DNA from: Saccharopolyspora galaxeae
GTDB lineage: Bacteria; Actinomycetota; Actinomycetes; Mycobacteriales; Pseudonocardiaceae
Length of the DNA: 64,000 bases
NCBI RefSeq assembly: GCF_016526145.1
Contig: NZ_JADDUE010000011.1
Location: forward strand, 1 to 64,000
Direction of reading: 5' to 3'
Part shown: piece by piece, positions 2,908-12,180 of the stretch
How the letters are laid out: each line of letters starts with the position of its first letter
How positions within the stretch are numbered: position 1 is the first letter of the stretch
The notes under the pieces: generated by a model
Databases searched by the model: none
What the model saw: only the letters and a program-made list of their open reading frames with translations
What the model was told of the DNA's origin: nothing
Translations under genes and position numbers: made by a program

Positions 2908-2937
2908 ATCGGGAGGCGTGCGCCTCGACCGACCGGC

Positions 2938-3029
2938 GGAGGCGGACGGGAATCGAACCCGCCTGGCCGAGGTGCTCGGCCACGTCGGTTTTGAAGACCG
3001 CGGGGGCCACCAGGCACCCATACGCCTCC
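2938..3029 (-). tRNA. selC: Selenocysteine tRNA (anticodon TCA)
   Basis: On the minus strand the acceptor ends GGAGGCG and CGCCTCC pair. The anticodon loop CTTCAAA carries TCA (plus-strand TGA at 2992-2994). A long extra arm follows (GTGGCCGAG and CTCGGCCA pair), then the T arm with GGTTCGATTCCC. The length of 92 nt without encoded CCA and the very long variable arm are typical of bacterial tRNA-Sec. It is charged with serine, converted to selenocysteine by SelA and delivered to UGA by SelB; neither protein is encoded here. It lies 90 nt before selD, in opposite orientation, and reads toward the dehydrogenase gene. Confidence 0.95.
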
Positions 3030-3119: not shown

Positions 3120-4121
3120 GTGACCGAGCTTCGGACGAATTCCGCCCACCGCCTGACCCAGTACGCGCACGGAGGGGGCTGCGCGTGCAAAATCCCGCCG
3201 GGCGAACTGGAATCCATGGTCGCGGGTCTGCGCGGCAGCACCGACGGCGAGCTGATCGTCGGGCTCGACGACGGCGACGACGCGGCCGCGGTGCGCCTGG
3301 ACGGCGGCAGCGCGGTGATCAGCACCGCGGACTTCTTCACCCCGGTCGTGGACGACGCCTACGACTGGGGCCGGATCGCCGCGGCCAACGCACTGTCCGA
3401 TGTGTACGCGATGGGCGGACGGCCGGTCGTGGCGGTGAATCTGCTGTGCTGGCCGCGCGAGCTGCTGCCGGTGGAACTGGCCGGTGAGGTGCTGCGCGGC
3501 GGAATGGACGTCGGCAGGCAGGCGGCCTGCCCGGTCGCGGGCGGGCACAGCGTGGACGACCCGGAACCGAAGTACGGCATGGCCGTCACCGGCGTCGGTT
3601 CGCCGGATACCTTGCTGCGCAACGACTCCGGGCGTGCCGGCCTGCCGCTGTCGCTGACCAAGCCGCTGGGCATCGGGGTGCTCAACACCCGGCACAAGGC
3701 CACCGGCGAGGTCTTCCCGCAGGCGGTGGCGGCGATGACCGAGCTCAACGCGGGCGCCGCCGACGCTGCGGTGCGGGCCGGGATCGGGTGCGCCACCGAC
3801 GTGACCGGTTTCGGCCTGCTCGGTCACCTGCTCAAACTTGCCCGCGCCAGCGGGGTGTCCGCGCACCTCGATCCGGCAGCGGTGTCCTATCTGGACGGAG
3901 CTAGGGAGGCGTTGCGGGACGGCTTCGTCAGCGGCGGCACGAAGCGCAACCTGGACTGGGTGCGGCCGCACGCCGACCTCTCGGCGATCTCCGAGGACGA
4001 GGCGCTGCTGCTGGCCGACGCGCAGACCTCCGGGGGCTTGCTGGTGGCCGGAGAGGTCCCGGGCGCACCGGTCATCGGTGAGCTCGCCCCGCGGGAGGAA
4101 CACCTCATCACCGTGCGCTGA
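3120..4121 (+). CDS. selD: Selenide, water dikinase (selenophosphate synthetase)
   Basis: This enzyme makes selenophosphate from selenide and ATP, the selenium donor for Sec-tRNA formation. The 333-residue protein has the N-terminal active-site loop GGGCACKIPPGE. Cys21 and Lys24 correspond to the essential Cys17 and Lys20 of the E. coli enzyme, so this is the cysteine form, not a selenoprotein itself. The AIR-synthase-type ATP-binding blocks follow (ISTADFFTPVVDD, AMGGRPVVAVNLL, GGHSVDDPEPKYG, TDVTGFGLLGHL, DAQTSGGLL). GTG at 3120 is chosen because the -10 box TACGCT ends 7 nt before it, suggesting a leaderless mRNA. It lies between selC and, 2.7 kb on, the UGA-containing formate dehydrogenase that needs it. 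Confidence 0.96.
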   Translation: MTELRTNSAHRLTQYAHGGGCACKIPPGELESMVAGLRGSTDGELIVGLDDGDDAAAVRLDGGSAVISTADFFTPVVDDAYDWGRIAAANALSDVYAMGGRPVVAVNLLCWPRELLPVELAGEVLRGGMDVGRQAACPVAGGHSVDDPEPKYGMAVTGVGSPDTLLRNDSGRAGLPLSLTKPLGIGVLNTRHKATGEVFPQAVAAMTELNAGAADAAVRAGIGCATDVTGFGLLGHLLKLARASGVSAHLDPAAVSYLDGAREALRDGFVSGGTKRNLDWVRPHADLSAISEDEALLLADAQTSGGLLVAGEVPGAPVIGELAPREEHLITVR

Positions 4122-6814: not shown

Positions 6815-6878
6815 TTTCAAGTGATCGCATCGCGGGTACCGGGTGGGAGCCGAAGCCCGCCGCACGAGGAGGTCCGCG

Positions 6879-9800
6879 ATGCCCCAATGGCTCAGCTGGC
6901 CCGTCCTGCGGCAGCTCACCGGCCGCGATCCGCTGGGCCGCGGCGCGGCCGCGCGCTCGCGGGGCACCGACGCCATCCAGGCCCGCACCGAGCAGGCCGA
7001 CGAGGTGGTGCGCTCGATCTGCCCGTACTGCGCGGTCGGCTGCGGGCAGCAGGTCTTCGTCCGCGACGGCGAGGTCACCCAGATCGAAGGCGACCCGGAC
7101 TCACCGATCAGCCGCGGGCGGTTGTGCCCGAAGGGCTCGGCCAGCCGGGAGCTGGTGACCTCCGGCGGACGTCAGCGCAAGGTCCGCTACCGCCGCCCGC
7201 ACGGCACCGAGTGGGAGGACCTCGACCTCGAGACCGCACTCGACATGATCACCGAGCGCGTGCTGGACACGCGCGACGCCACCTGGCAGCAGTCCGACGA
7301 TCAGGGCAGGCTGCTGCACCGCACCATGGGCATCGCGAGCCTCGGAGGAGCGACCCTCGACAACGAGGAGAACTACCTCATGAAGAAGCTCTACACCGCC
7401 ATGGGCGCGATCCAGGTGGAGAACCAGGCCCGCATTTGACACTCCTCCACGGTTCCCGGTCTGGGGACCTCCTTCGGGCGCGGAGGGGCCACGACCTTCC
7501 AGCAGGATCTGGCGAACGCCGACTGCATCCTCATCCAGGGCTCGAACATGGCCGAGGCGCATCCGGTCGGATTCCAGTGGGTGATGGAGGCCAAGCGCCG
7601 CGGCGCCACGGTGATCCACGCGGACCCGCGGTTCACCCGCACCTCGGCGATGGCCGACCAGCACGTGGCGCTGCGCGCGGGTTCGGACATCGGATTCCTG
7701 GGCGGGCTGATCCACCACGTGCTGGCCAACGACGCGTACTTCCACGACTACGTGGTCAACTACACGAACGCCGCGATGATCGTGGGCGAGGAGTTCGCCG
7801 ACACCGAGGATCTGGCGGGCATCTTCTCCGGATTCGATCCCGAAGAGGGCAGCTACGACACGAGCACGTGGCAGTACGAGGGCACCGAAGCGGTGCCGTC
7901 GGTCGGCGGGCACGGCCCGGAAGGTGCCACCAGCGACCACGTGGGCGGCCCGGAGGACAACTCCGACGTCGACGGGAACTCGACCAGGCACGGCCGCGAG
8001 CGCGCGGCGAGCAAACCCGAACGCAGCGGTTCCGGCGGTCCCGTCTACCACGGCAAGGCCGAGACCGACCCGACGTTGCAGCACCCGCGCTGCGTGTTCC
8101 AGATCCTCAAACGGCACTACGCCCGCTACACCCCCGAGATGGTCGAGCAGGTCTGCGGTGTGCCGCAGGAGGACTTCCGGCGGGTGGCCGAGGCGCTGGT
8201 CGCCAACTCCGGCCGGGAACGCACCAGCACGATCGCCTACGCCGTGGGCTGGACCCACCACACCGTCGGCGTGCAGTACATCCGCGCGGCATCGATCTTG
8301 CAGTTGCTGCTGGGCAACGTGGGCAGGCCGGGCGCGGGCATCCTGGCGTTGCGCGGGCACGCCAGCATCCAGGGCTCGACCGACATCCCGACGCTGTTCA
8401 ACCTGCTGCCCGGCTACATTCCGATGCCGCACGCGCACACCGACGCCGACTTGGACTCGTTCGTCGCCCAGGACGAGTACGCCCGCGGCTACTGGGGCAA
8501 CATGCGCTCCTACATCGTCAGCCTGCTCAAGTCGTGGTGGGGCGAGCACGCCACCGCCGACAACGACTACGGCTTCGGGCGACTGCCGCGGCTCACCGGC
8601 GATCACGGCAGCTTCCAGACCGTCGCCGACCAGATCGACGGGCTGGTGAAGGGCTACTTCGTGGTCGGCGAGAACCCCGCGGTGGGCACCGCCAACGCCC
8701 GCCAGCAGCGGATGGGGCTGGCGAACCTGGACTGGCTCGTGGTCCGCGACCTCAACATGATCGAAACGGCCACCTTCTGGAAGGACGGCCCCGAGATCGA
8801 AAGCGGCGAGCTGGCCACCGAGGACATCGGCACCGAGGTCTTCTTCCTGCCCGCCGCCGCGCACACCGAGAAGGACGGCACCTTCACCAACACCCAGCGG
8901 CTGCTGCAGTGGCACCACAAGGCCGTCGAACCGCGCGAGGACCAGCGCAGCGACCTGTGGTTCTACTACCACCTGGGCCGCAAGCTGCGGGAGAAGCTCG
9001 CCGCGCGGCAAACCGAACGCACGGCGCAGCAGCGCGAGAACGACCGCGCCCTGCTCGAGCTGACCTGGGACTACCCGACCGAGGGCGAGATCGCTGAGCC
9101 CAGCGCGGACGCCGTGCTTCGCGAGATCAACGGCAGCGACGAGCACGGCGCGGCGCTGCCCGGCTACTCGAAGCTCCGCTCCGACGGTTCCACCTCGTGC
9201 GGCTGCTGGATCTACTGCGGTGTCTACGCCGAGGAGGTCAACCAGGCCGCCCGCCGCAAACCCGGCAGCGAACAGACCTGGGTAGCGCCGGAATGGGGCT
9301 GGGCCTGGCCGATGAACCGGCGCACCCTCTACAACCGCGCATCGGCCGACCCGCAGGGCCGCCCGTGGAGCGAGCGCAAGGCTTACGTGTGGTGGGACGC
9401 GGACGCGGCCGAGTGGACCGGCCACGACATCCCGGATTTCGACAAGGCGAAGCGCCCCGACTACGAACCGGACCCGGACGCGACCGGGCCCGCGGGCATC
9501 GCGGGCACCGACCCGTTCATCATGCAAAGCGACGGCCGCGGCTGGCTCTACGTCCCGTCCGGGCTGGTGGACGGGCCGCTGCCCGCGCACTACGAGCCGC
9601 AGGAATCGCCGCTGGCCAACGCGCTGCACGACCATCAGCAGCGCAATCCGGCGCGGCAGGTCTTCGCGCGCCCGGAGAACCGCTACCAGCCCAGCGGCTA
9701 CGAGAGCGGTGCCGAGGTCTATCCGTACGTGTTCACCACGTTCCGGCTCACCGAGCACCACACTGCGGGCGGCATGAGCCGCTGGCTGCACCACCTGTCC

Positions 9801-10295
9801 GAACTCGCACCGGCGATGTTCGTGGAGGTCTCGCCGGAACTGGCCGCCGAGCGGAAGCTGGCGCACCTCGGCTGGGCCACCATCGTCACCGCCCGCAGCG
9901 CCATCGAGGCCCGGGTGCTGGTGACCGGCCGGATGCGGCCGCTGCGGTTCGGCGACCGCACGATCCACCAGATCGGCCTCCCGTGGCATTGGGGGCCGAA
10001 CGGGCTCAGCACCGGCGACGCCGCCAACGAGCTGATCGGCGTCGCGCTGGACCCGAACGTGCACATCATGGAGACCAAGGCCGGGACCTGCGACATCAAT
10101 CCCGGCAGGCGCCCGCGCGGCCGTTCGCTGGCCGTCTACGTGGCCGAGTACCGGCGGCGGGCGGGCATCACCGAGCTCACCGGCACCGAGCACGCCGACG
10201 ATCCGCGGCGCAGCGGGGACGAGGAAAGCGGCCCGGATCAAGAAAGCAGCCCGGACCAGGAAAGCAGGGGCGACGAGCAAGGACGAGGGGAGTGA
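6879..10295 (+). CDS. fdhA: Selenocysteine-containing formate dehydrogenase, catalytic molybdopterin subunit
   Basis: This is a 1138-residue subunit if the in-frame TGA at 7437-7439 is read as selenocysteine (residue 187), in context NQARI-Sec-HSSTVPGLG, matching the Sec site of E. coli FdnG. AGGAGG at 6867-6872 precedes the ATG by 6 nt. A [4Fe-4S] motif uses C48, C51, C55 and C83 (CPYCAVGC, then LCPKG); the molybdopterin blocks include MAEAHPVGFQW and HADPRFTRTSA. It oxidises formate to CO2. There is no twin-arginine signal, so it probably faces the cytoplasm. A hydrophilic, low-complexity insert lies at about residues 324-390 and an acidic tail with repeated PDQES at the C-terminus. It overlaps or abuts fdhB. 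Terminating at the TGA would leave a useless 186-residue peptide. Confidence 0.95.
7437..7475 (+). other. UGA selenocysteine codon and bacterial SECIS element
   Basis: The TGA at 7437-7439 is followed after 11 nt by a 7-bp stem (GGTTCCC 7451-7457 with GGGGACC 7463-7469, one G-T pair) closed by the loop GGTCT. Sequence and spacing closely resemble the E. coli fdhF SECIS hairpin with its GGTCT-containing loop, to which SelB binds. Confidence 0.9.
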
Positions 10296-10300
10296 CACCC

Positions 10301-11212
10301 GTGGCCGACGAACCGGCCAACCGGCTCAGCGGCCCGCTGGCCGACCCGGCGGGCGAAGCGGGCTACGCCGAGCACCCCGAGCGGGTCGGGTTCTTCACCG
10401 ACACCAGCGTGTGCATCGGCTGCAAGGCGTGCGAGGTCGCCTGCAAGGAATGGAACCTGCTGCCCGAGGACGGCCTGGAACTGACCGGCATGTCCTACGA
10501 CAACACCGGCGACCTCGGCGCGAGCACCTGGCGGCACGTGGCGTTCATCGAGCAGCACGTGGAACGCAGCGCCGCCGAGGTCGACCTCGGAATGCCCGGC
10601 ATGGCACCGCCCGGCGGGCAGAGCACGCCGACCAGCGACGGCACCGTGCGCTGGCTGATGTCCTCGGACGTGTGCAAGCACTGCACCCACGCCGCCTGCC
10701 TCGACGTGTGCCCGACCGGCGCGCTGATCCGCACCGAGCACGGCACGGTGCTGGTGCAGGACGACGTGTGCAACGGCTGCGGCTACTGCGTGCCCGCCTG
10801 CCCGTACGGGGTGATCGACATCCGGCCCGGGGACGGGCGGGCGTTCAAGTGCACGCTGTGCCAGGACCGGCTCGGTTCCGGGCTCGCGCCCGCCTGCGCC
10901 ACGGCTTGCCCGACCGAGTCCATCCAGTACGGCCCGCTCGACGAACTGCGCGAGCGGGCCGCCATGCGGGTCGACGAACTGCACGCCCAGGGCGTGCCGG
11001 AGGCCCGGCTCTACGGCCACGAACCCGACGACGGGGTCGGCGGCGACGGCGCGTTCTTCCTGCTGCTGGACGAGCCCGAGGTCTACGGCCTGCCGCCGGA
11101 CCCGGTGGTGACCACCCGCGACCTGCCGTCCATGTGGAAGCACGCTGCGGCTGCGGCGGGCACCGCCGCAGCGGTGATCGCGGCCTGCTTCGCGGGCAGG
11201 AGGTCGCGGTGA
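10301..11212 (+). CDS. fdhB: Formate dehydrogenase iron-sulfur subunit
   Basis: This electron-transfer subunit is about 303 residues with four four-cysteine motifs for four [4Fe-4S] clusters: CIGCKACEVAC, CKHCTHAACLDVC, CNGCGYCVPAC, and CTLC with ACATAC. It is the FdnH/DMSO-reductase-B type. A C-terminal hydrophobic Ala-rich segment (about residues 280-300) is a likely membrane anchor. GTG at 10301 is preferred because GAGGGGAG ends 8 nt upstream; an in-frame GTG at 10292 overlapping the fdhA stop is the alternative. It overlaps the next gene by GTGA. It should pass electrons from FdhA to the membrane subunit. Confidence 0.92.
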   Translation: MADEPANRLSGPLADPAGEAGYAEHPERVGFFTDTSVCIGCKACEVACKEWNLLPEDGLELTGMSYDNTGDLGASTWRHVAFIEQHVERSAAEVDLGMPGMAPPGGQSTPTSDGTVRWLMSSDVCKHCTHAACLDVCPTGALIRTEHGTVLVQDDVCNGCGYCVPACPYGVIDIRPGDGRAFKCTLCQDRLGSGLAPACATACPTESIQYGPLDELRERAAMRVDELHAQGVPEARLYGHEPDDGVGGDGAFFLLLDEPEVYGLPPDPVVTTRDLPSMWKHAAAAAGTAAAVIAACFAGRRSR

Positions 11213-12180
11213 GCGCCGACGCAGTGTCGAACGATCGGGCGCCGAACGGCGGGCAGGTACCGAACGGGCAGGCGCCGGAGGAGTTCCGCTCCTACTACGG
11301 CCAACCGGTGATCAAGGAACCGACCTGGAAGGTCCCGGACGTCCCCGCCTACCTGTACCTCGGCGGCATGGCGGGTGCCTCGGCCACGATGGCGGTGCTG
11401 GCGGAGCTGACCGATCGCCCGGAGCTGGCCCGCAACGGCCGGATCGCCGCCGCGGCCGGGTCCACCGCCAGCGTGGTCGCGCTGATCCACGACCTCGGGC
11501 GCCCGATGCGGTTCCTGAACATGCTGCGGGTGTTCAAGCCGACCTCGCCGCTGAGCGTGGGTTCCTGGATCCTCGCCCCGTTCTCGGGTCTGACCGGTGC
11601 GTCCGCGGCGAGCGCGCTCACCGGCTGGTACCCGCTGCTGGGCAGGCTCAGCGCGGGCGCGGCCGGGGTCCTCGCCCCGGCGATGACGACCTACACCGCC
11701 GTGCTGCTGGCCGACACCGCCGTTCCGGGCTGGCACGAGGTGTACCGCGAGCTGCCGTTCGTGTTCGCGGGCAGCGCGGTCTCCAGCGCGGGCGCGGTGG
11801 CGATGCTGACGACTCCGACCGGGCAGACCGCCCCGGCGCGGCGGATGGCGATCGCGGGTTCGGCACTGGAACTGGCCGCCGAACGCCGCATGGAGCACAC
11901 CGCGGGCATGGTCGGCGAGGTCTACCGCACCGGCCGCCCCGGCCGGGTGCTTCGCGCCGCACGAGCGCTGACCTGGACCGGAGCCGCGGCGTCGGTCTTC
12001 GCCGGGCGGCACCGGGCGATCGGCGCCGTCGCCGGGCTGTGCCTGAGCGCGGCCGGTGCGGCCACCCGCTACGGCATCTTCGAGGCCGGCCGCGTCTCGG
12101 CGCGCGACCCCCGCTACACCGTCGTCCCGCAACGGCAGCGGCTCGCCGAGAAGGAACAAGACGCGCAGAAGTCCGGCTGA
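11209..12180 (+). CDS. NrfD-family membrane subunit of formate dehydrogenase
   Basis: This 323-residue polytopic protein has a hydrophilic N-terminus with EEFRSYYGQPVIKEP, then multiple membrane spans of the polysulfide-reductase NrfD type (VPAYLYLGGMAGASATMAVL, LIHDLGRPMRFLNMLRVFKP). GTG at 11209 overlaps the fdhB stop and AGGAGG lies 5 nt upstream. NrfD proteins pass electrons to the quinone pool without haem, unlike the cytochrome b subunit FdnI. With FdhA and FdhB it would form a membrane-bound formate:quinone oxidoreductase. It is the last gene of the operon; no fdhD or molybdenum-cofactor gene follows. Confidence 0.9.
   Translation: MSADAVSNDRAPNGGQVPNGQAPEEFRSYYGQPVIKEPTWKVPDVPAYLYLGGMAGASATMAVLAELTDRPELARNGRIAAAAGSTASVVALIHDLGRPMRFLNMLRVFKPTSPLSVGSWILAPFSGLTGASAASALTGWYPLLGRLSAGAAGVLAPAMTTYTAVLLADTAVPGWHEVYRELPFVFAGSAVSSAGAVAMLTTPTGQTAPARRMAIAGSALELAAERRMEHTAGMVGEVYRTGRPGRVLRAARALTWTGAAASVFAGRHRAIGAVAGLCLSAAGAATRYGIFEAGRVSARDPRYTVVPQRQRLAEKEQDAQKSG

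Follow-up and report, generated by a model that had tools for sequence, protein, structure and literature searches.

An in-frame UGA, probably read as selenocysteine, in a formate dehydrogenase gene of an actinomycete

Does the TGA at positions 7437-7439 end a gene, or is it read as selenocysteine (Sec)? The question is raised by one frame of the window, the whole stretch of 64,000 nucleotides analysed here. Translated from the ATG at 6879, the forward-strand gene fdhA (6879..10295) holds this TGA as codon 187 and as its single internal TGA, and the next in-frame stop is the TGA at 10293-10295, as a sequence-only reading of the same DNA had stated; with Sec, the product would have 1138 residues. 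That reading also foresaw that an automatic caller would split the gene, and an ORF listing by standard rules does cut it in two (6843..7439 and 7548..10295). Its central proposal, a selenocysteine formate dehydrogenase with a SECIS hairpin, is supported by the position of the codon, a conserved RNA element, a complete Sec machinery, conservation across the family and a match to the NCBIfam family NF041513. On these grounds we put at about 0.96 the probability that fdhA, in this soil-type actinomycete host, is a canonical bacterial selenoprotein gene with the UGA at 7437-7439 read as Sec. Opposite fdhA, the minus strand has an open frame of 1065 aa (7101-10298), of the kind that high-GC DNA yields and without evidence for a gene.

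The TGA had been placed at the Sec position of FdnG-type enzymes, and alignment with solved structures agrees: residue 187 is aligned with X in chain A of 1h0h, which we take to be Sec, and with C in chain A of 9qm0, a chain named as selenocysteine-containing. In homologues, this codon was read together with the 48 nt after it in 150 rows, none of which was dropped. These comprise 30 loci from a search of 297 genomes of the window's bacterial family, 20 loci chosen largely because their stop counts were odd, the best 80 of 591 loci, and 20 loci drawn largely from other genera, including three chosen as genomes with no tRNA-Sec match. The Sec column reads TGA in 127 rows, TAG in 10 and TGC in 13, counts that are not frequencies because some genomes stand twice among the rows, and we therefore give distinct-sequence counts alongside. 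The nearest named genomes among the matches listed are Saccharopolyspora. The species itself is represented by a second genome (G046), whose FdhA protein is 99% identical and which has one TGA in the match, again at the Sec codon; this makes a sequencing error at 7437-7439 unlikely.

In 149 of the 150 rows, the frame runs on for 869-952 codons beyond the Sec codon before it meets a stop. The exception (L093, from G121, a 450-contig assembly) has an extra TGA 691 codons past the Sec UGA, where the window protein has Trp, and is either a sequencing error or a decayed gene. A second Sec codon in relatives was also considered and discarded, as the counts of two or three TGA triplets reflect stops at or after the gene end in the rows read.

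The predicted bacterial SECIS hairpin lies at 7451..7469 on the forward strand, with the loop GGUCU at 7458-7462. The sequence-only reading described a 7-bp stem with this loop, and the RNA from 7437 to 7476 does fold so; what did not hold is any distinction of the fold by its energy, or conservation of its outermost pair. Folding energy is unexceptional (z = +0.72 for 7437-7480, -0.21 for 7437-7476 and +0.83 for 7430-7500, with 155, 79 and 162 of 200 dinucleotide shuffles, respectively, folding at least as well), and we rejected it as evidence for a SECIS element. Moreover, the fdhA ORF contains seven hairpins with a 7-bp stem and a 5-nt loop, the candidate among them. The outermost pair, 7451-7469, forms in just 32 of 54 distinct Sec-type sequences (those with TGA or TAG), so that the conserved stem is that of the inner six pairs, 7452-7457 with 7463-7468.

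It is conservation, not folding energy, that takes the hairpin beyond chance. Of the 137 Sec-type rows, 136 form the inner six pairs, as do 53 of the 54 distinct Sec-type 33-mers. Every one of these 54 has GGTCT, AGTCT or AGTTT as its loop, and no such loop occurs among the 12 distinct Cys sequences. The six inner pairs are found in 0 of 13 TGC (Cys) rows (L078-L082, L143, L161, L174, L184-L187 and L195), a contrast with an effective sample of about one, because the 12 distinct Cys copies form one clade (support 100), so that the hairpin was lost once and not twelve times; the protein tree has 138 rows, near-identical ones among the 150 having been merged. Within the stem, pair 17-29 (7454-7466) links the third position of a Val codon to that of a Gly codon and covaries: it is paired in 53 of 54 sequences against a column-shuffle mean of 34.1, with 0 of 10000 shuffles, which do not keep relatedness, reaching as high, and is seen as C-G, T-A, T-G, G-C, G-T and one T-C. 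Under a null of synonymous codons, drawn according to the codon usage of fdhA itself, the inner six pairs arise in 20% of 200000 draws, and the six pairs together with GGTCT in 1.4%. A CCC (Pro) codon stands in the stem in all 137 Sec-type rows; at this position, Ala is found in 8 of the 13 Cys rows, Val in 4 and Ile in 1, a difference that again goes back to a single evolutionary event.

The protein itself is assigned as a Sec-containing formate dehydrogenase alpha subunit from its translation and its family matches. FdhA scores 1943.1 bits against NF041513 (formate_DH_Act; cut-off 1400) over residues 5-1094, the 44 C-terminal residues falling outside, and on this match is a predicted ortholog in that curated actinobacterial formate dehydrogenase family. 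It also exceeds the cut-off of TIGR01553 (930.6 against 814.2 bits), carries the Pfam domains Molybdop_Fe4S4, Molybdopterin and Molydop_binding, and has as its best solved relatives the formate dehydrogenases 1h0h, 9qm0, 8cm4 and 1kqf.

Two further subunit genes follow on the forward strand. A putative 4Fe-4S ferredoxin-type beta subunit, fdhB (10301..11212; Pfam Fer4_11), reaches 177.7 bits against TIGR01582 (FDH-beta), below the cut-off of 334.7, and a putative NrfD-type membrane subunit, fdhC (11209..12180), matches Pfam PF03916 (44.6 bits, cut-off 25.8), with no NCBIfam match at E <= 0.001. As regards the FDH-N type, the alpha subunit is thus over its cut-off, the beta subunit under its own, and a cytochrome b gamma subunit is absent, an NrfD-type gene standing next; this points to an FdnG-like catalytic subunit that is not part of an FdnGHI complex. 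In a simple scan for hydrophobic stretches (19-residue windows, hydropathy threshold 1.6), FdhC shows a single one and FdhB lacks any, a weak result, so that it is the Pfam NrfD match that points to membrane anchoring of FdhC. A simple scan of the first 60 residues of FdhA finds no hydrophobic stretch, from which we would more tentatively place FdhA on the cytoplasmic side. Among 138 homologues, a simple motif scan finds the Fe-S motif in 120, eight of which have RRx[FLIVM] within the 60 residues before it.

All four genes of the Sec machinery were found in the genome, two of them in the window. The tRNA-Sec gene selC, with anticodon UCA, lies on the minus strand at 2938..3029 (2935-3029 according to ARAGORN; Rfam RF01852 78.4 bits, gathering threshold 47; fold z = -4.07), and selD, encoding a predicted selenide, water dikinase, on the forward strand at 3120..4121 (TIGR00476 376.4 bits, cut-off 125), about 3.8 kb and 2.8 kb upstream of fdhA, respectively. 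Outside the window, selA (418.1 bits, cut-off 267.9) and selB (253.1 bits, cut-off 242.25) adjoin each other on contig C30, SelB carrying the C-terminal wing domain PF09107, and fdhD is present on contig C31. As no match to a selenouridine synthase was obtained in the genome, we found no use of selD other than Sec. Nine stretches of the genome match TIGR01591; four lie within fdhA and the other five have no internal stop, so among formate dehydrogenases fdhA is the one in-frame-TGA gene that the machinery would serve. On the far side of selC, a tartrate dehydrogenase gene (1840-2907; TIGR02089, 518.2 bits, cut-off 470.4) ends some 30 nt from the tRNA gene, which is on the opposite strand.

Could the TGA nevertheless be a true stop, leaving a pseudogene or two separate polypeptides? 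Standard ORF calling does split fdhA here, and the downstream piece has an ATG of its own at 7548. However, the second genome of the species has the same TGA, as do 127 of the 150 rows, the remainder having TAG or TGC; the codon sits at the active-site column of a frame that is otherwise intact over its 1138 residues and is 82-86% identical to the next nearest relatives over almost its full length, in a genome with a complete Sec machinery. We regard a true stop as extremely improbable, and give equally little credit to the idea that the UGA is read by a tryptophan or other near-cognate tRNA without the Sec system, or is an error for TGG or TGC. Readthrough of UGA as Trp is known elsewhere, but the sense codon at the Sec column is TGC in 13 of 13 cases among the 150 rows and never TGG, the genome has both tRNA-Sec(UCA) and SelB, and the formate dehydrogenase-bearing relatives with no tRNA-Sec match have TGC in all eight cases read; against an error stands the agreement of the second genome on TGA. 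Nor is it much more probable that the Sec gene is genuine and the protein another molybdenum enzyme, such as a nitrate reductase or a different oxidoreductase: molybdopterin enzymes form a broad family, and NasC, NapA and others do appear among the weaker matches, but the two top matches, both over their cut-offs, and the best solved structures are all formate dehydrogenases. Decoding of the UGA as Sec in a formate dehydrogenase is the reading that we retain.

The Sec codon has itself changed within the homologues. TAG stands at this position in 10 of the 150 rows, all of them Geodermatophilaceae (L112, L124, L133, L142, L145, L150, L155, L158, L165 and L175), and likewise in L229, the second fdhA copy of one UAG genome. 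In 6 of 6 UAG genomes searched, the tRNA-Sec has the anticodon CUA; none lies within the five UAG loci scanned, being located elsewhere in the genomes. The use of UAG as Sec with a tRNA-Sec(CUA) is already described in PMC5330540. On the tree, L158 is apart from the other nine UAG rows, which suggests a transferred gene that may have undergone a second change from UGA to UAG after transfer, suiting its host. One genome, that of Geodermatophilus sp. LHW52908 (G299; loci L212 and L218), has both a tRNA-Sec(UCA), at 81.8 bits, and a tRNA-Sec(CUA); an ORF that by eye is transposase-like lies close to the former, and fdhA has TAG at the Sec codon. This may be a mobile copy, contamination, or a case of two Sec codons in one genome. 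For the window's own family, UAG as Sec was considered and set aside, as each of the seven loci examined for a single TAG carries TGA at the Sec codon and uses the TAG as its terminal stop.

The sequence-only reading took Sec enzymes to be lacking from most actinomycetes, a rarity that is not borne out within the window's bacterial family: among 297 sampled genomes, tRNA-Sec is over the cut-off in 202, and fdhA is matched at E <= 1e-100 in 177. Both are present in 168 genomes, formate dehydrogenase only in 9, tRNA-Sec only in 34 and neither in 86, giving an odds ratio of 47, uncorrected for relatedness. The same reading had named Cys at this codon in strains with no selC or selD as a case against itself. 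Eight of the nine genomes with formate dehydrogenase only were read (G138 being the one left), and all eight have TGC, so such relatives do exist; but they belong to one clade, and the window genome is not of this kind, having TGA together with selC and selD. The match between codon and machinery is imperfect, as G031 and G115 carry Cys (TGC) copies together with tRNA-Sec. FdhA and SelD make up two thirds of the Sec-to-Cys changes detected in PMC1794560, according to a passage of that paper. The 34 genomes with tRNA-Sec and no FdhA match at E <= 1e-100 (e.g. G002, G016 and G034) may have other selenoproteins, or Sec systems without this enzyme.

Saccharomonospora halophila 8 (L113) has an fdhA with UGA and hairpin and a tRNA-Sec of 76.5 bits. 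The relevant part of PMC5029168 lists this strain with an orphan SelD and no other selenium trait. Its genome gave no selB over the cut-off, the best match (214.3 against 242.25 bits) being perhaps EF-Tu, a lack that an incomplete assembly may explain. Some orphan SelD entries may be overlooked Sec systems.

Taking the parts predicted from the sequence (gene, codon, hairpin, tRNA, selA, selB and selD, subunits), established knowledge of these families suggests how SelB binding, the metal and its ligand, and the electron path would fit together. Sec-tRNA-Sec would be made by SerRS, SelA and SelD and delivered by SelB to the ribosome at the UGA 7437-7439, the C-terminal winged helix of SelB holding the hairpin 7451-7469, so that the codon would be decoded as Sec and not as a stop. 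In the protein, the selenium of Sec would be a ligand of Mo (or W) in the bis-MGD cofactor of FdhA, which would oxidise formate to CO2, with electrons passing through the Fe-S clusters of FdhB to the NrfD-type membrane subunit and from there probably to menaquinone.

The stop-codon split in fdhA is thus supported as real recoding, which bears on the annotation of actinomycete genomes, and the fdhA family offers a natural series of UGA, UAG and Cys for the gain, reassignment and loss of a Sec codon. It had further been supposed that the enzyme tells of anaerobic or microaerobic metabolism. Nothing found in the genome shows this, and published views differ, at least in the parts of the two papers concerned (PMC4498112 against PMC7176365); a Sec fdhA alone is no indicator of anaerobic life. 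One might speculate, at rather less than even odds, that the SECIS element dictates protein sequence in the clade and that the enzyme is a Sec formate:quinone oxidoreductase that faces the cytoplasm, contains an NrfD subunit and works aerobically. If so, these actinomycetes would be a test case for why an entire Sec system is retained in aerobes for the sake of a single enzyme.

Among known systems, E. coli FdnGHI (1kqf) and the Sec/W formate dehydrogenases 1h0h and 9qm0 have the alpha-subunit family in common with FdhA, the Sec column being aligned for the latter two. E. coli FdnI is a cytochrome b, whereas the membrane subunit of the window is of NrfD type, and the window FdhA is without a hydrophobic N-terminal stretch. 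Another likeness is FDH1 of Actinomycetospora chiangmaiensis DSM 45062, a member of the Pseudonocardiaceae, to which many of the named relatives belong. Passages of PMC7176365 describe there a 1078-aa Sec FdhA accompanied by FdhB, FdhC and a SECIS element, and the detection of SelA, SelB, SelD and FdhD in the proteome. Formate accumulates without selenite and scarcely with it, and when the organism grows on 2-hydroxyisobutyric acid, formate is removed by a selenium-dependent formate dehydrogenase step; since the pathway includes a monooxygenase, we infer this growth to be aerobic. In that organism, the FDH1 cluster as listed includes selA and selB, and there are three Sec formate dehydrogenases, as described in the same passages, whereas the window genome has selA and selB on another contig and one in-frame-TGA formate dehydrogenase that we found.

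Sec genes are also reported in Saccharopolyspora: a passage of PMC2206050 ascribes to S. erythraea the full set for selenocysteinyl-tRNA, formate dehydrogenase going unmentioned in that passage. A Sec formate dehydrogenase is further described, in the parts of the papers concerned, in Streptomyces incarnatus (an FDH-O with selABCD and SECIS, assigned by the authors to anaerobic energy metabolism; PMC4498112) and in Amycolatopsis mediterranei, as a UGA-Sec enzyme that A. orientalis lacks together with selA, selB, selD and tRNA-Sec (PMC4048454). Given these published enzymes in relatives, the fdhA of the window is an ordinary member of a described system; the enzyme, like the system that decodes its UGA, has been described before and is common in relatives of the host.
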